From: Fusobacterium ulcerans
Lineage (GTDB): Bacteria > Fusobacteriota > Fusobacteriia > Fusobacteriales > Fusobacteriaceae
Reading direction: 5' to 3'
Length of the DNA: 64,000 nucleotides
NCBI RefSeq assembly: GCF_003019675.1
Contig: NZ_CP028105.1
Location: forward strand, 3,240,282 to 3,304,281
Within the stretch, counting starts at the first letter, position 1. Each line of letters begins with the position of its first letter. The notes under the pieces are model-generated. The model had not been told where the DNA came from and did no database searches. It saw only the letters and a program-made list of their open reading frames with translations. The position numbers and the translations under genes were made by a program. Positions 36,246-42,896 of this stretch are shown in pieces.

Positions 36246-36830
36246 ATGGCTAATGAAAAGTCTTATATTGATATGTTTGATTTAGGAGGTTCTTTAAAAA
36301 AGATATGGTATTACTATCTTATCATTGGTATTCTTCTTGCAATAACTGGATTAATTGGAATAGTTAATCCCCTTGGATTTTCAATTTCACTTATTTATGT
36401 TTTAAGCTGGAGTTTCTTATTGATAGGACTTCTTAATATCTATTATGCTTATCAAGGAAGAAAAAATAAATATTTCCATTGGGGAATAGTATTGGTAAGC
36501 GGTATAATTGATATCCTTGCTGCTGTCTCAATATTTTACAATCCCTTTGAAAGTGCTGTAATACTTCTTATATATTTAGGTATACTTATGTTGTTCAGAG
36601 GTTTCTCTCTTATATTTACTAGAGGAAAAGCTGTTGCAGATGAAATACCAGAAGTACATAGTATCAGATCTATTTTAATTGTAAGAGGCATTCTTGATAT
36701 CATCTTTGGTATCTTATTAGTTATATGTCCTCTTTTAATGGGATATATTCTTCCTGTAATCATTGGATTCTATCTTTTATTTATGGGAATATTATTTATA
36801 ATCTACAGTATTCAAGTAAAAAGAGCCTAG
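36246..36830 (+). CDS. HdeD-like (DUF308) membrane protein
   Basis: 194 residues with six hydrophobic segments in three pairs, e.g. 'YYLIIGILLAITGLIGIVNP', 'WGIVLVSGIIDILAAVSIFYNP', 'IRSILIVRGILDIIFGILLVICPL'. The repeated 'G.l.i..Gi..i..P' pattern is that of HdeD/DUF308. The E. coli protein is linked to acid resistance; here the role is unknown. SD GGGAGGT precedes the ATG, a strong terminator follows, and holA lies 66 bases upstream. Confidence 0.8.
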   Translation: MANEKSYIDMFDLGGSLKKIWYYYLIIGILLAITGLIGIVNPLGFSISLIYVLSWSFLLIGLLNIYYAYQGRKNKYFHWGIVLVSGIIDILAAVSIFYNPFESAVILLIYLGILMLFRGFSLIFTRGKAVADEIPEVHSIRSILIVRGILDIIFGILLVICPLLMGYILPVIIGFYLLFMGILFIIYSIQVKRA

Positions 36831-36836
36831 AAATAG

Positions 36837-36875
36837 AAAGAGACAGATTTAAATTTATAAATCTGTCTCTTTTTC
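36837..36875. terminator. Strong terminator after the HdeD-like gene
   Basis: A perfect 14-bp stem, AAAGAGACAGATTT (36837-36850) with AAATCTGTCTCTTT (36859-36872), followed by T on the plus strand. Confidence 0.85.
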
Positions 36876-36960
36876 AATTACATTACTTGTCTTAGAAATG
36901 CAATATACTCTTTATCTTTACCGTTAAACTCATAATTAGAGATAAAAAATATTTAATAGC

Positions 36961-37245
36961 TTATTTTTTATCTTGAATTTTGTCTTTTAGTTTGAATGAA
37001 GCATTAAATTTTACTTTCTTCATTTCAGTTGTCTGCATAAGCTCTCTTGTTTTTGGATTGCTTATAGTTTTAGGTTTTATATTTCCAACAGTAAATACTC
37101 CTTTGTTGAAGAATTGTACTTTACCATCTTTTTTTAAACCAGCTTCTATAATTTCCAAGATTGCTTCTACATCTTCTTTTGCTTCTGCAATTGTTAAATT
37201 ATTTAATTTTTTTCTGTATAGTTTAATAAAATCTTTCTTATTCAT
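36961..37245 (-). CDS. HU-family DNA-binding protein, copy 1
   Basis: 94 residues, HU length. N-terminal helices 'MNKKDFIKLYRKKLNNLTIAEA', 'VEAILEIIEAGLKKDGKVQFFNKGVFTV' and the arm region with 'ISNPKTRELMQTTEMKKVKFNASFKLKD', where the usual GRNP motif is replaced by SNPKT. It is likely to bend DNA like other HU/IHF proteins. It is the last of three genes, 9 bases after a second HU-like gene. Confidence 0.82.
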   Translation of the reverse strand: MNKKDFIKLYRKKLNNLTIAEAKEDVEAILEIIEAGLKKDGKVQFFNKGVFTVGNIKPKTISNPKTRELMQTTEMKKVKFNASFKLKDKIQDKK

Positions 37246-37254
37246 AGTACCCCT

Positions 37255-37536
37255 CTAGTCAACATTGATATTTTCTTTAAGTATTTTTCCCTGTCTGAAA
37301 ACCAATTTATTTTTAGGTAAAGTTTTCTTAATTTTCTTTATTCTTGGATCACAGTATTCTCTAGCTCTTACAGGTTTTATTTCAAATATTCCCCATCCTT
37401 TGAATACTAATTTTTTATCCTCTTGTAATATCTCCTCTACAGTTTCCCAAAAAGTTGAGATTCTATGTTGAGCTTCTTTCAAGTTTTTAAGATTTCTTTC
37501 ATCTTTATAAACTTTGATAAAATCCTTCTCTTTCAT
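37255..37536 (-). CDS. HU-family DNA-binding protein, copy 2
   Basis: 93 residues, related to the following HU gene in length and layout: 'KEKDFIKVYKDERNLKNLKEA', 'TVEEILQEDKKLVFKGWGIFEIKPVRAREYCDPRIKKIKKTLPK'-type arm, ending 'LVFRQGKILKENINVD'. The arm is more basic than that of its neighbour. Start and upstream stop overlap (TAATG), so it is coupled to the membrane-anchored protein before it. A diverged heterodimer partner is possible. Confidence 0.75.
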   Translation of the reverse strand: MKEKDFIKVYKDERNLKNLKEAQHRISTFWETVEEILQEDKKLVFKGWGIFEIKPVRAREYCDPRIKKIKKTLPKNKLVFRQGKILKENINVD

Positions 37537-37964
37537 TATTCCCTCCCTAAGTCGTTTTTCTCGCTTTCTTTTGAAAAATTATCTTCTGCTAGTGTTCTAG
37601 GAAGAAATTCAATAAACTTTTTAAATCTCTGATCATTTAATTTTAAATTCTTGATTATTACAGTTTTATTTTTAGCTGAGTAAATATTTATAATACTGCT
37701 TTCCTCTTTTTTCTCCAACAATATTATTATATTGGAATTCTCTTTATCTTCTACTGCATTTAAATATTTCATTTCCAAATATTTACCCATAAGTATCTGC
37801 TCTTTCAACCACTGTATATTACCTAAGAATTTATAATAGAATCTCACTCCAATTTTATTATTCAAATTTCTTATTGCTAAAACAGTTTTTAACTTAATAA
37901 AGATAAATACTATTAAAAATATAACTACCAAATACAAAATCAATTTCGAGTCTAAATAATTCAT
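37536..37964 (-). CDS. Unknown protein with an N-terminal membrane helix
   Basis: 142 residues. One hydrophobic helix (residues 8-24, 'LILYLVVIFLIVFIFIKL') is followed by a soluble domain with strands such as 'NSNIIILLEKKEESSIINIYSA' and 'KTVIIKNLKLNDQRFKKFIEFLP'. No known family is recognised. It is the first gene of the set with the two HU-like genes (coupled TAATG), which suggests a link with nucleoid or envelope functions, but this is only context. Confidence 0.55.
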   Translation of the reverse strand: MNYLDSKLILYLVVIFLIVFIFIKLKTVLAIRNLNNKIGVRFYYKFLGNIQWLKEQILMGKYLEMKYLNAVEDKENSNIIILLEKKEESSIINIYSAKNKTVIIKNLKLNDQRFKKFIEFLPRTLAEDNFSKESEKNDLGRE

Positions 37965-38010
37965 TTTTATATCCCACTTTCTCTATCTCTATTCAATCAA
38001 TGAGAGAGAA

Positions 38011-38068
38011 TTAAGAGCTAAAGCTCTTAACATCCCACTCATATAACTATACCTAAGAGGATATAGTT
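38011..38068 (-). terminator. Two stem-loops after the FadA operon
   Basis: TTAAGAGCT/AGCTCTTAA (38011-38030) and AACTATA/TATAGTT (38045-38068) lie just after the last fadA-like stop. No clear T-run follows, so it may be a processing or weak termination site. Confidence 0.35.
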
Positions 38069-38075
38069 AAACAAA

Positions 38076-38471
38076 TTACTCTGCTCTTAAACTTTTCAAT
38101 TGATTAAATTCGAATATTTTTCTTTCTTCTACTTTTGATTGTTTATCAATTTCTGTAAGGAATCCTTGGTATTGCTTTAATAAGTTTTTCATTTCATTAG
38201 AGTAAATGCTTCTTCCTTCCATAGAAGTCATGTAGTTGATTCTTTCTCCACATTTATTTCTAAGATTTGTAAGAGAGTTAAGATTATTTTGAGCTGATTT
38301 TGCTATTTGCTCCTCTTCTTTGAATCTCTCATTTTCTTTTTGCTCAAGCATTTTTAATTCTGCTTCTAATTGAGAGAATCTTGAATCCACTCCTGCTGCC
38401 GGTGCTGCTAATGATACGCTCGATACTAGTAATAATGCTGCTCCTAATAACATAGTTGTTTTTATTTTCAT
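38076..38471 (-). CDS. FadA-family adhesin, copy 1
   Basis: 131 residues. A signal peptide (MKIKTTMLLGAALLLVSSVSLAAPA) is followed by an all-helical hairpin rich in Glu/Lys/Gln: 'SRFSQLEAELKMLEQKENERF' and, after a short turn, 'MKNLLKQYQGFLTEIDKQSKVEERKIFEFNQLKSL'. This is the FadA pattern: length 129-ish, 'LE.EY..L...E..R..EE...A' heptads forming a leucine-chain filament that binds host cadherins. A single Cys (in 'LRNKCGERI') is unlike classic FadA. It is the last gene of the phase-switch operon. SD AGGAGGAAA precedes the ATG. Confidence 0.88.
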   Translation of the reverse strand: MKIKTTMLLGAALLLVSSVSLAAPAAGVDSRFSQLEAELKMLEQKENERFKEEEQIAKSAQNNLNSLTNLRNKCGERINYMTSMEGRSIYSNEMKNLLKQYQGFLTEIDKQSKVEERKIFEFNQLKSLRAE

Positions 38472-38520
38472 AATAATACTTTCCTCCTAGTTTTATTTTC
38501 TTTAGTAATTTAAACGCTTA

Positions 38521-38910
38521 TTATTTTCCTTCTTTTACAGCTTGTAATTGTTGGAATCTGTTGATGATACTTTCTTGCTCTTTCATTTGTCCTTCTAATT
38601 CTCTAAGGGCATCTTGATATTTTTTAGCTAATTCTCCATATTGCTCTTTGTAGAATTTAACATCCTTGATTTGTCCTAATTTTGCTGATTTAGTAGAGAT
38701 TTGATTATATAATTCTCTTTGTTTAGCTAAAGTTGCTTTTGCAGTTTCAGCTATTTGCTTTTCAGAGTTATATCTCTCATCCTCTTTTTGCATAAGCATT
38801 TTATATTCTTGCTCAAGAGTGTTGAAACGACTTTCAAATTCTGCTGTCACCCCTGTAGAAAATGCTGATGCTGATAATAAAATTGTTCCTGCTACTAATA
38901 GTTTTTTCAT
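38521..38910 (-). CDS. FadA-family adhesin, copy 2
   Basis: 129 residues from ATG 38910, chosen by SD GGAGGTAAAC; an upstream ATG 38922 has none. A signal peptide (MKKLLVAGTILLSASAFS) precedes 'EFESRFNTLEQEYKMLMQKEDERYNSEKQIAETAKATL', close to the FadA consensus, then a helical return arm ending 'QLQAVKEGK'. The mature length and heptads fit FadA filaments. It lies 50 bases before copy 1; the pair may assemble together. It is located in the operon behind the invertible promoter. Confidence 0.9.
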   Translation of the reverse strand: MKKLLVAGTILLSASAFSTGVTAEFESRFNTLEQEYKMLMQKEDERYNSEKQIAETAKATLAKQRELYNQISTKSAKLGQIKDVKFYKEQYGELAKKYQDALRELEGQMKEQESIINRFQQLQAVKEGK

Positions 38911-38963
38911 GTTTACCTCCAAGTTTATAATATAGTTTTGTTTAGAAAACTTTTTTAGCGTTA

Positions 38964-39497
38964 TTATTTGTTTAGTTTTTCCAATTCAGCAAGTCTTTTT
39001 TGCAATTCAGCAAGTCTTTCCTTACTTACATTTTTTCCATCCAGTTCATTATTTATCTCAATTATTTCTCTAAATATCTCTTCTCTAGACAATCTTTGAT
39101 CTTTAAGAGCCTGTTCTTTTGCTGCTGCATCTGCTGCTGCTTTTTCTTTAGCCTCTTGAGCTCTTAAAATTTCCTGTCTTTTTGCTTCTTCAGCTTTTTC
39201 TTTCATTGCAGCTTCTTTTTCTAAAGCCTTTTGTCTCATTTCAGCTTCTTTGATTGCTGCTTTTTCTTTCATTTCAGCTTCCTTTTGTTTCATCGCTGCT
39301 TCTTCTGCTAATGCTTTTTGTCTTAGCTCTTCTTTTTTAGCAGCTTCTTCTTTTTCTTGTCTCTCTATTGCCAATCTAACTAGTCTTTCTCTTTGCATAT
39401 CTCTTTCAGACATATTAGAAGTATTTGGGTTTCCTGTATTGCTGTTAGAGCAGCTTATTAATAGTAAAGAACTCAAAATTATAAGTAATTTTTTCAT
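38964..39497 (-). CDS. Lipoprotein with a long Ala/Glu/Lys coiled coil
   Basis: 177 residues. A lipoprotein signal peptide ends in LLISC (lipidated Cys near residue 16). A spacer is followed by about 110 residues of 'EEAAKKEELRQKALAEEAAM' and 'KQKEAEMKEKAAIKEAEMRQK'-type heptads, an uninterrupted coiled-coil rod. The C-terminus is 'RLAELQKRLAELEKLNK'. It is expected to be an outer- or inner-membrane anchored rod, perhaps spanning to the cell wall or helping FadA export. It overlaps the preceding gene by four bases. The family is not named. Confidence 0.75.
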   Translation of the reverse strand: MKKLLIILSSLLLISCSNSNTGNPNTSNMSERDMQRERLVRLAIERQEKEEAAKKEELRQKALAEEAAMKQKEAEMKEKAAIKEAEMRQKALEKEAAMKEKAEEAKRQEILRAQEAKEKAAADAAAKEQALKDQRLSREEIFREIIEINNELDGKNVSKERLAELQKRLAELEKLNK

Positions 39498-40027
39498 ATC
39501 TTTTCCACTTCCTTCCCATCAATTTTTTCAGCTTGTTCATCTTTAATGATTCCCTCTTTTTTTAAGATATCATTTAACTTATATTTTTCAATTATAGAAT
39601 TATAGTAATCTACTTGTGCCTGATTATATTTTTCTACAGCTAGACTTTTATATAGTATTGGAAGCATTTCCTCTAAAGGTTTATCATCAAATTGATCTTT
39701 ATGTCTTTTATAAAAATCTGCTGCTTCTTCATCGTTAATTTGTGTTTTGCTTTTTAATTCTCTTTCAATAAAATAATTTATTTTAAGTTGGTTTTGAGCT
39801 ATTTGAATATTTTCAAGCTCTTCTGGTGTAAATTCAGCTTTTTTTACCTCTTCTAACAATGCTTTATAAACCAGTATTCTTGCAACTTCATCTTTATCTT
39901 TTTGTTTTTCTTTCTCAGATAAAGTTATTTGTGTTGGAGCATTATTATTAGTTTTGTTTGTATCATTACAACCTGTTATCAGTATCCCTGCTGCGATAAT
40001 AGATACTATCCCGCAAATTTTTTTCAT
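39494..40027 (-). CDS. Lipoprotein related to the 41513-41941 protein, SurA/PpiC N-domain-like
   Basis: 177 residues with a lipobox (LITGC, Cys near residue 20), then an Asn/Thr-rich spacer and a helical domain: 'DEVARILVYKALLEEVKKAEFTPEELENIQIAQNQLKINYFIEREL', 'INDEEAADFYKRHKDQFDDKPLEEMLPILYKSLAVEKYNQ'. This resembles the helical chaperone part of SurA-like peptidyl-prolyl isomerases without the isomerase domain. The same arrangement occurs in the 142-residue protein at 41513-41941, on the other side of the invertible segment. A chaperone for the adhesins is an inference. Confidence 0.65.
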   Translation of the reverse strand: MKKICGIVSIIAAGILITGCNDTNKTNNNAPTQITLSEKEKQKDKDEVARILVYKALLEEVKKAEFTPEELENIQIAQNQLKINYFIERELKSKTQINDEEAADFYKRHKDQFDDKPLEEMLPILYKSLAVEKYNQAQVDYYNSIIEKYKLNDILKKEGIIKDEQAEKIDGKEVEKI

Positions 40028-40063
40028 TAAAATCCTCCCAGTATTTTGTTTTAAAGAAAATTA

Positions 40064-40306
40064 TTATTTCATTTCTTTAATTTTTTCTTTAATTCTCTGA
40101 ATTTCATACTCATTTCTTTCTTTTTCTGTCATTCTAGAGATTTCAGCAGCCTTTCTAGCTTGCTCTGCTTCTTTTTCCCTTTGTCTTTCTTGATATTCTC
40201 TTCTTCTCTGATTAAGAATATCTAAAGGGTCATCACTACTCTCTTTAGCATTTGAACAGCTAACAACTAAAATGGCTGATAGAAATAAAAAACTTAATTT
40301 CTTCAT
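40064..40306 (-). CDS. Small lipoprotein, first gene of the FadA operon
   Basis: 80 residues from ATG 40306, placed by SD GGGAGGGAATT; the frame is open 38 codons further up without an SD. Signal 'MKKLSFLFLSAILVVSC' with lipidated Cys 17, then a short acidic stretch and a helical Arg/Glu/Lys-rich rod ('QRRREYQERQREKEAEQARKAAEISRMTEKE'-type). It is the first gene after the invertible promoter, about 120 bases from the predicted start of transcription. A hairpin AAAAGGAT/ATCCTTTT (40349-40370) lies in its leader. The function is unknown. Confidence 0.7.
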   Translation of the reverse strand: MKKLSFLFLSAILVVSCSNAKESSDDPLDILNQRRREYQERQREKEAEQARKAAEISRMTEKERNEYEIQRIKEKIKEMK

Positions 40307-40391
40307 AATTCCCTCCCAAATCGATCTTATTCGTAATTTATAATGATTAAAAGGATCTGCAAATCCTTTTATTAAATTACGTTTTTTCATT

Positions 40392-40421
40392 AGGTAATAA
40401 AAATATCTTATATTAACCATT
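40392..40421. repeat. Left recombination site (inverted copy) of the FadA phase switch
   Basis: The 27-bp core at 40392-40418 is AGGTAATAAAA + ATATC + TTATATTAACC. The right arm is identical to that of the site at 41176-41202 read on the other strand, the left arm agrees at 8 of 11 positions, and the asymmetric 5-base centre ATATC is identical but inverted. Arm-spacer-arm with 11-bp arms is the form of tyrosine recombinase core sites. The site lies between the operon start and the promoter at 40432-40460. Confidence 0.78.
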
Positions 40422-40431
40422 TCTTTTTTTT

Positions 40432-40460
40432 ATGATATCGTATTTTTGAAAATAAATCAA
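40432..40460 (-). promoter_or_regulatory. Promoter of the FadA operon, inside the invertible segment
   Basis: On the minus strand: TTGATT (40460-40455), a 17-base spacer, TATCAT (40437-40432). Predicted start near 40425; transcription then passes through the left recombination site into the operon. Confidence 0.7.
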
Positions 40461-40515
40461 CTGTTTTTTTTAAATAAATTAACTATTTTCTTTCTATAAA
40501 CTTAAAAAATTGAAC

Positions 40516-41112
40516 TCATATCTTGAATTTATCGTATACTTTGTTAATCATTTCTTGCTCTATTCCTATATACTTTAATGTTTGTTCGGCAGAAGAGTGA
40601 TTAAATATAGACATTACCAGAGCTATATCTAAAGTTCCTCTATAAACTGTATGCCCCCAAGTTTTTCTTAGAGAGTGAGTCCCAATAGGATATGCAATGT
40701 TCAAATCTGCTTTAGCCTGATTCAAATACTTACTTATTGAAACCGTTGAAATAGGCTTGTCAAACAGTTCTTTTACATATTTTCTATTTAAAGATTTAAA
40801 TAAAAACCCCTTTTCTTTAGAATAACCCAATGTTTCATAATAGTTCTTTAATTCTTCAATTGACCTCTGACAAACTGTATTTAATTTAATCTCTCTCATC
40901 TTTTTAGTTTTCTTTTCTTTTAACTTTACTACATATTCACTGTTTATATCTTCAAATCTAATTTTAGACAAGTCAGAAATTCTTAGTCCAACATTTACCC
41001 CTATATTTATCAGTGCTAAAATTACTACTTTATCGTTTAATTTGAAATATTTTCTTAATTTTTTTAAATCTTCCTTACAGATGTATTTTACTTCTTGTCC
41101 TCTTTTGTCCAT
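40516..41112 (-). CDS. Small tyrosine recombinase (Fim/Xer-type site-specific invertase candidate)
   Basis: 198 residues, the size of FimB/FimE-type recombinases. All catalytic residues are visible: Arg44 in GLRISDLS, Lys near 68 in LKEKKTKKMRE, His146 and Arg149 in THSLRK, His172 in FNHSS, and the nucleophile Tyr181 in LKYIGI. There is no phage-type arm-binding domain. SD AAAAAAGGAG precedes the ATG. Its gene lies inside the invertible segment between the two inverted sites, and transcription may continue into the FadA operon. Its promoter (TTAACA, 18 bases, TATCAT near 41174-41145) touches the right site. It very probably inverts this segment. Confidence 0.85.
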   Translation of the reverse strand: MDKRGQEVKYICKEDLKKLRKYFKLNDKVVILALINIGVNVGLRISDLSKIRFEDINSEYVVKLKEKKTKKMREIKLNTVCQRSIEELKNYYETLGYSKEKGFLFKSLNRKYVKELFDKPISTVSISKYLNQAKADLNIAYPIGTHSLRKTWGHTVYRGTLDIALVMSIFNHSSAEQTLKYIGIEQEMINKVYDKFKI

Positions 41113-41172
41113 TTTTTTCTCCTTTTTTGATTTTTTTGAAAATTATGATAAATTCATCAATAGATCGTTGTT

Positions 41173-41205
41173 AATGGTTAATATAAGATATTTATATTAA
41201 CCATT
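41173..41205. repeat. Right recombination site of the FadA phase switch
   Basis: A near-perfect dyad: 14-base arms (41173-41186 and 41192-41205, AATGGTTAATATAA and its complement) around GATAT at 41187-41191. It corresponds to the left site at 40392-40418 in inverse orientation. Confidence 0.78.
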
Positions 41206-41446
41206 ATTTATTTGTTAATTCTTATATACTAGCTATTATAAAAAAAATACTTTTTTCCTTTTAAAAAAATATTTTTTTTGATAAAATACTATGAAAATTA
41301 TATAAAACTCGTTTTTAAACATTTTAAAAACTTTTTAAATTTTCTTTATATGTTTAAAAACGTATTATTACACAAAAACCTATTTTTTTATCTATTTTTC
41401 TAATCAATAAAAGTTCTGATCTAACAAGAAATCTAAATACTTTAAT

Positions 41447-41484
41447 AAAAAAACCTGACTAATTCTTTAAAGTCAGGTTTTTAT
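41447..41484. terminator. Strong bidirectional terminator beside the phase switch
   Basis: AAAACCTGACT (41450-41460) pairs with AGTCAGGTTTT (41471-41481), with T-runs on both sides. It ends the 41513-41941 gene and would block a rightward transcript from the inverted promoter. Confidence 0.8.
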
Positions 41485-41512
41485 TTTATAGTTTTAACCT
41501 AAATTTATTATC

Positions 41513-41941
41513 TTATTCTTTTGTTTCTATTTCCTGATTTTTCTCTTCACCAGTATACTCTTTTAAAATTTCATTTAATTTATGCTTTTCTATTATTTCA
41601 TTAATTGCTACAAGCTTACCTTCATTAATTTTTTGATTTATTAAAGCTTGTTGAAGTTGAGGATATACTTCCATTATAGTTTTATCTTTTAAAATTTCAG
41701 TATTATTTTTATATACTTCTAAAAGTTCATAATCAGATATTGTAATGTTGTTTTGTGCAATAGTAGTCAAATAAAACTCAATTTCCATATTTAATTTTAA
41801 TTCCTCCAGATGCTTTTCTTCTTCAGCAGTATATTTTTTTTCTTTCATTTCATTTAAAATGGCTTTTCTTACAAGCAGCTGTGCTATTGCATCCTTGTTC
41901 TCCCTTACATTTTCTAATTCTTTTTCTGTTAGTTTTATCAT
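41513..41941 (-). CDS. Paralogue of the 39494 lipoprotein without export signal
   Basis: 142 residues from ATG 41941, set by SD AAAGGAGAG; the ATG at 41989 has none. 'DAIAQLLVRKAILNEMKEKKYTAEEEKHLEELKLNMEIEFYLTTIAQNNITISDYELLEVYKNN' and 'IMEVYPQLQQALINQKINEGKLVAINEIIEKHKLNEILKE' align throughout with the lipoprotein at 39494-40027, but there is no signal peptide or lipobox. Its SurA_N-like helices suggest a chaperone-like module in the cytosol. It lies just outside the invertible segment and is separated from it by a terminator. Confidence 0.65.
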   Translation of the reverse strand: MIKLTEKELENVRENKDAIAQLLVRKAILNEMKEKKYTAEEEKHLEELKLNMEIEFYLTTIAQNNITISDYELLEVYKNNTEILKDKTIMEVYPQLQQALINQKINEGKLVAINEIIEKHKLNEILKEYTGEEKNQEIETKE

Positions 41942-42530
41942 CTTCTCTCCTTTAGATATTTTATTGTACAGATAATTTTTCTTTCCCAAAATGTTGTTTT
42001 TTTCTTTGATTAATTTAAAATATTATTTTATTTTTTTTAAACCACCACCTCTTTTGTTCATTATTTAGAATTTTATAAATACTTGTTTGTTTTTTGTGTG
42101 ACAATTTCAGTAACACATAGTTATTATAACATACAAAAAACAAAATAACATTTTTACAAAAAAATAATCAACTAAATAACATTCTATAACTTTAAAAAAT
42201 ATTGAATAAAATTTTTTTTATTTTTTTCCATACAACATTTGCCTAAAAAAACTATCTAAGCTTCTTTTTTATTTTCATTCAAATCAATTATATTTTAAAT
42301 TCTTTTTTTTATTTCCATTAGAATAGTAATCATAAAAATATAAAAAATTTTTTATTATAGCTTCATTTATGTGAAATTTTTGTCACAGAGATACTAATTT
42401 TTTTTATTTATATTTTATAAAAAATAAAATAATGTTTTATGAAGCATAAATATTTAATTAATATGTTTAAATACAGCAATAAAAATGTTATAATTTTATT
42501 ATAATATATTATAATATTAGAGGTGAGAAC

Positions 42531-42896
42531 ATGACAGAATTAGAAAAAAAAGAGTTATGTGAAAAGTTTGATGTAAATACTTTGATAAATTATCTTGAAG
42601 ATAACAATAACCTTGTAGTAAAGTTTTTGTTTAGTGAAAATGAGCACGACTTTCCTTTGGAAATATTTGATATTCTTCTTAGAGAAGTTCAGCTTTTAAA
42701 AAAAGTATGTGACAATATGGAAGAATGGAAAGATTTAATAAAAGTATATACAAAGAATATCATCTCTGTAAAAGAAGATTTAAAACTATTTTTTTTCATT
42801 CAAAATGGAGAAATTATGAGTATCCCTGTATCAGATGAAGTAAGAGAAAAACTCGAAAATAAAGTAAGTCTTTGGATTGATGAAAGTTTAATATAA
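42531..42896 (+). CDS. Uncharacterised small acidic protein
   Basis: 121 residues, strongly acidic, helical ('LEKKELCEKFDVNTLINYLEDNNN', 'FDILLREVQLLKKVCDNMEEWKDLIKVY'), with no signal peptide or membrane segment. I do not recognise a family. SD AGAGGTGAG precedes the ATG and TATAAT-like boxes are dense upstream. The gene stands alone, with a terminator after it. The 589 bases before it (41942-42530) are AT-rich, contain a TATAAT box for the divergent 41941 gene, and show no other gene. Confidence 0.6.
   Translation: MTELEKKELCEKFDVNTLINYLEDNNNLVVKFLFSENEHDFPLEIFDILLREVQLLKKVCDNMEEWKDLIKVYTKNIISVKEDLKLFFFIQNGEIMSIPVSDEVREKLENKVSLWIDESLI

Follow-up and report, generated by a model that had tools for sequence, protein, structure and literature searches.

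Can the DNA segment in front of a lipoprotein-FadA operon of Fusobacterium ulcerans turn around in place, and does its orientation decide whether the operon is transcribed? FadA is a prominent adhesin of Fusobacterium, and the literature links it with cell invasion, colitis and colorectal cancer. We analysed a 64,000-nucleotide stretch of F. ulcerans DNA (the window), in which a tyrosine recombinase gene and a promoter-like sequence lie between two inverted sites beside such an operon, and compared it with three genomes of the same genus (G008, G009 and G010). We propose that the locus is a reversible promoter-inversion (phase-variation) switch for the lipoprotein-FadA operon, a reading to which we assign a probability of roughly 0.87. 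If it is true, a clonal gut population of Fusobacterium holds cells expressing the FadA operon as well as silent ones, and the switch affects adherence assays, strain comparisons and transcriptomes.

Architecture of the segment and of the operon

A repeat search gave, as the best inverted pair of the window, the arms 40395-40421 and 41173-41199, complementary in 26 of 27 positions. Its score is 24; the best scores lay at 14-18 when the full 64-kb window was dinucleotide-shuffled 60 times. The remaining perfect 13-bp palindromes of the window resemble terminators. The pair belongs to the following set of elements:

40389..40421, minus strand: recombination site on the operon side (left), with the weaker outer arm, spacer AATATCT (plus strand), near-invariant in four genomes
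40402..41192, no strand: segment that inverts, measured from spacer to spacer; G010 has it as the window does, G008 and G009 the other way round
40432..40460, minus strand: promoter-like TTGATT-17-TATCAT, directed leftward into the operon (ON); a sequence match, activity inferred
40516..41112, minus strand: tyrosine recombinase, 198 aa, catalytic domain only (Pfam PF00589, E=7.8e-20)
41145..41174, minus strand: possible recombinase promoter TTAACA-18-TATCAT, an inference, only partly conserved
41173..41205, plus strand: far-side recombination site (right); 7-bp spacer AGATATT between perfect 13-bp arms
41449..41482 (about), no strand: bidirectional terminator beyond the far site; folding on both strands, z about -4

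Both sites read as 13-7-13 structures. The left one is ATTAGGTAATAAA-AATATCT-TATATTAACCATT, with ATTAGGTAATAAA as outer and TATATTAACCATT as inner arm; the right one is AATGGTTAATATA-AGATATT-TATATTAACCATT, and its arms are perfectly palindromic. A 20-bp core, composed of the 13-bp inner arm and the 7-bp asymmetric spacer, is the same at both sites in opposite orientation, and the outer arms of the two sites are not alike. Exact copies of the core occur at only two places in the 3.54-Mb genome, namely at these sites. An earlier note, made from the sequence of this DNA, had described 27-bp sites at 40392-40418 and 41176-41202, which fall inside the full 33-bp sites.

The promoter-like sequence claimed there, TTGATT-17-TATCAT on the minus strand (40460-40432), is present and is kept, with small variations, in all four genomes. 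It lies downstream of the recombinase gene and is directed out of the segment. Across these genomes, the sites and the promoter block form conserved islands within drifting intergenic DNA. The promoter matches the consensus in 9 of 12 positions, and such matches are near chance frequency in the region (34 found vs 26 expected, sd 5). The minus strand has no promoter-like match in the interval from the left site to the first gene of the operon. A weak match on the opposite strand inside the recombinase gene could allow leaky expression in the OFF state. Inverted sites flanking an outward promoter, one mark of an inverton, are present here, with the promoter recognised by sequence alone. The terminator proposed at 41447-41484 could be reproduced as a hairpin at about 41449-41482, folding well on both strands. 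AGTTRATTTATTT occurs twice within 40455-40490, at a distance of about 22 bp. The two copies overlap and precede the promoter -35 and are kept in relatives; it is possible that they bind a regulator or act as accessory binding sites of the recombinase.

The recombinase belongs to the tyrosine recombinases (PF00589) by both its catalytic R-K-H-R-H-Y set and its fold. All the residues listed earlier for the reading frame 40516-41112 (R44, K68, H146, R149, H172 and Y181) are in place. The AlphaFold model has a mean pLDDT of 91.5, and its Foldseek matches are the catalytic domains of XerA, XerH, Tn1549 integrase and Cre, a Xer/Cre-type fold. Because the Pfam catalytic-domain match begins at residue 11, an N-terminal core-binding domain cannot be accommodated. 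The protein had been called FimB/E-sized, which is correct for its size; close kinship to these enzymes is not supported, as identity to FimB is 19% over 162 aa and the nearest solved folds are those of Xer, integrase and Cre. It does not qualify for the FimB/FimE subfamily, with which only the size and the missing N-terminal domain agree, nor for the Hin-type DNA invertases, being a tyrosine and not a serine recombinase.

The operon to the left of the segment, with the genes that may extend it, is composed as follows:

40064..40303, minus strand: first operon gene, predicted lipoprotein, 79 aa; ribosome-binding site GGGAGGG read from sequence
39494..40027, minus strand: predicted lipoprotein, 177 aa
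38964..39497, minus strand: predicted lipoprotein, 177 aa, with charged repetitive body; weak lipoprotein-signal match, under the cut-off
38521..38910, minus strand: FadA-family adhesin 1 (PF09403 E=1e-29; solved FadA E=1.5e-19)
38076..38471, minus strand: FadA-family adhesin 2, divergent (PF09403 E=2.2e-27; solved FadA E=3e-4, weaker)
37536..37964, minus strand: predicted membrane protein, 142 aa, possibly of the same operon; gene order alike in four genomes
36961..37536, minus strand: pair of HU/IHF-like DNA-binding proteins, at 37255-37536 and 36961-37245, which may belong to the same operon
36838..36871, no strand: terminator-like perfect palindrome 3' of the last operon gene (palindrome search)

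The FadA identity of both adhesin genes, also claimed earlier, holds: they match PF09403 with 103.3 and 95.8 bits (curated cut-off 28.5), which meets family membership, as well as the solved FadA; their function in adhesion and invasion is inferred. A stable hairpin is predicted by folding in the gap 3' of the second FadA gene, and the 142-aa gene and the two HU/IHF-like genes are possibly on the FadA transcript. A reading frame of 118 aa with an alternative start within the left site was discarded, as it is not open in G008.

Some further observations concern the surroundings. HU/IHF-like genes recur in adjacent pairs near adhesin loci (window 36961-37536; L040 13947-14505; L042 5628-6201): they follow the FadA operon, follow an autotransporter gene of F. 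varium Fv113-g1, and lie beside a 73% identical recombinase in G008. The gene 41513-41941, beyond the far site, is a diverged relative of the 177-aa lipoprotein 39494-40027 without signal sequence; members of this lipoprotein's family are numerous in the genus, and several lie near FadA genes. At the palindrome ending the operon, G010 carries about 1.75 kb of extra DNA (window 36860-36871 vs L037 11377-13128).

Inversion of the segment among related genomes

Reversed order of the segment in other assemblies, proposed as a check of the switch, was found in two related species with collinear flanks. In G008, the window parts 36501-40421 and 41173-42896 align forward and 40395-41199 aligns reversed (805 nt, 92%). 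The segment is likewise reversed between collinear flanks in G009, and it is collinear with the window in G010. Both orientations, another mark of an inverton, are thus seen, between species only. In all four genomes the outer arms keep their own flanks, and the two ends of the segment, one with the promoter and one with the recombinase, exchange partners; the crossover is therefore placed within the 20-bp core.

A tree of 12 nearby genes groups the window (ON) with G008 (OFF), and G009 (OFF) with G010 (ON), with 100% bootstrap; 130 informative sites favour this quartet vs 74 and 56 for the alternatives. At least two inversions are therefore needed among the four species. The conflicting sites may point to past exchange between lineages, which is possible on these alignments.

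We surveyed 61 Fusobacteriaceae genomes for the site pair and the recombinase orthologue. The 20-bp core occurs in only four of them, as one inverted pair apiece, and these are the genomes with the orthologue. Loss of the pair in relatives that keep the recombinase would have refuted the switch; instead, the pair is kept in every such relative and is absent elsewhere in the survey. Neither the exact core (in genome_contigs and viral_contigs) nor the recombinase (in genome_contigs) gave any match in wider scans; near relatives are possibly absent from these collections, and the result has little weight.

The orthologues in G008 and G010 are 98% and 97% identical to the recombinase of the window. 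Among these three genomes dN is about 0.01-0.02 vs dS of about 0.5-0.8 (dN/dS about 0.02), and, as judged from these rates, the gene is under strong purifying selection in all three. The G009 copy is frame-broken, with 9 frame-breaking indels in 597 nt vs 8 in 14 other genes (about 8 kb in total). It is probably a decayed copy, with the reservation that neighbouring genes of the same assembly have frameshifts too. In G009 (C1:1140660-1141201, L038) intact sites flank a segment in the OFF orientation, which may represent a locked, decayed switch or a poor consensus within the segment; whether this genome is locked OFF is uncertain.

Expression of the operon and alternative explanations

We infer that the recombinase encoded inside the segment is the inverting enzyme. 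It would bind the 13-bp arms and exchange strands within the asymmetric spacer AGATATT; because the sites lie in opposite orientation, the 0.8-kb segment would invert. In the ON orientation of the window, transcription of the lipoprotein-FadA-FadA operon would come from the promoter and from whatever read-through the recombinase gene supplies. In the reversed, OFF orientation, both would face the terminator at 41449-41482 and leave the operon without promoter; silence of FadA in this state, and flipping within a population, are likewise inferred.

One published data set bears on the ON state. We take G010 to be F. varium Fv113-g1 (plasmids AP017969 and AP017970), whose assembly has the segment ON. 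The RNA-seq study of this strain describes the FadA pair FV113-G1_14340/14350 as highly and constitutively expressed (PMC5720691). Scaling of locus tags puts the pair near 1.60 Mb, and the FadA pair at the switch locus lies at 1.633 Mb; the sole other adjacent FadA pair of the genome is at 1.30 Mb, and three other FadA tags of the same paper fit the same scale. By gene order, FV113-G1_14340/14350 would then be the FadA pair of the switch operon. Its FadA genes are of the same PF09403 family and the same operon is present in the genome; the paper mentions neither inversion nor recombinase nor phase variation (PMC5720691). An ON assembly with strong FadA expression in the only genome with published expression is supportive, not proof. 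Promoter inversion as proposed in the earlier note is supported by the conserved site pair and the reversed relatives; that it controls FadA transcription agrees with the anatomy and with a single published RNA-seq statement, without being directly shown.

Chance or assembly artefacts could in principle produce a repeat and reversed orders in an AT-rich genome, where weak inverted repeats abound. This is scarcely credible: the repeat scores 24 vs a shuffle maximum of 18, the same site pair is in four genomes, and the reversed order is in two independent single-contig assemblies. A more serious objection is that the segment inverts rarely, over evolutionary time only, and is no working phase switch in a population. 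All the evidence is indeed between species, and one of four recombinase copies is frame-broken; strong selection on the recombinase in three genomes, near-invariant sites and the number of inversions (at least two among four species) speak against this reading, which we consider improbable. It is also improbable that the segment inverts with a main role other than switching FadA on and off, such as control of the recombinase or tuning of an operon that has another promoter. Nothing beyond its sequence identifies the promoter, and weak promoter-like matches are found throughout the region. Against such a role stand the lack of a minus-strand match in the stretch separating the left site from the operon, the conserved promoter downstream of the recombinase and directed out of the segment, and the high expression of the FadA pair in the ON genome Fv113-g1.

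It has also to be considered whether another recombinase acting in trans mainly inverts the segment, the inner gene being redundant. An intact paralogue, 73-76% identical, is present in all four genomes; the copy of the window genome (75%) lies at 2.06 Mb, in a locus collinear in three genomes. In E. coli, a recombinase of one switch is known to act in trans on another (PMC6083910). Against this, genomes without the linked orthologue lack the 20-bp core, that orthologue is under strong selection, and the paralogue loci have no similar site; no site pair was found around the 75% paralogue, the plasmid-borne relatives or those of other genera. We regard this possibility as likewise improbable and retain the reading of a phase-variation switch served by its own recombinase. 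Relatives of the enzyme, 55-76% identical, also neighbour autotransporter operons, both chromosomal ones and those of plasmid AP017969 (L004 7858-10301 onward; L039; L040; L083 4686-8953); no site pair was detected beside them.

A larger scheme can be imagined, in which transcripts shared by recombinase and operon in the ON state, together with HU/IHF-like products acting on the sites, would make the rate or direction of flipping depend on the state, and the recombinases beside autotransporter operons would extend adhesin switching in Fusobacterium. We hold this self-coupled circuit to be unlikely as a whole; that the inner recombinase or the HU/IHF-like pair feeds back on the switch in a state-dependent way is speculative conjecture.

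Relationship to known invertible promoters

The literature searched, which lacked most subscription papers, described no invertible promoter for Fusobacterium. In the Hin system of Salmonella, which controls fljBA and has relatives in Gin and Cin, the invertible segment carries a serine recombinase gene and an outward promoter, and an enhancer and Fis take part. The present locus resembles it in having recombinase gene and outward promoter within the segment, whose inversion connects or disconnects a surface-protein operon. It differs in its tyrosine recombinase, 13-7-13 sites and FadA target, whereas Hin is a serine enzyme with enhancer and Fis.

The E. coli switches fimS (FimB/FimE), hyxS (FimX) and ipuS (IpuA/IpuB) are served by tyrosine recombinases of about 200 aa; as here, an enzyme consisting of the catalytic domain alone is encoded next to an invertible promoter, with an adhesin operon or an autotransporter gene downstream (PMC6083910). 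FimB and FimE are, however, encoded outside fimS and the present recombinase inside its segment; the segment is 0.8 kb long vs about 0.3 kb, and the enzyme is only 19% identical to FimB. RecV of Clostridioides difficile is not known to be encoded inside the cwpV and flg segments, and control of cwpV works through a terminator that forms in the OFF state. The RecV-dependent cwpV and flg switches (PMC2784873, PMC5386303) share with our locus inversion by a tyrosine recombinase, control of surface structures and an AT-rich gut anaerobe as host. The Fusobacterium locus has the layout of Hin and the chemistry of the fim/ipu/RecV type, is a strict member of neither group, and stands out within invertible-promoter systems by having FadA as target, by its genus and by the proof of flipping that the genome comparison supplies.
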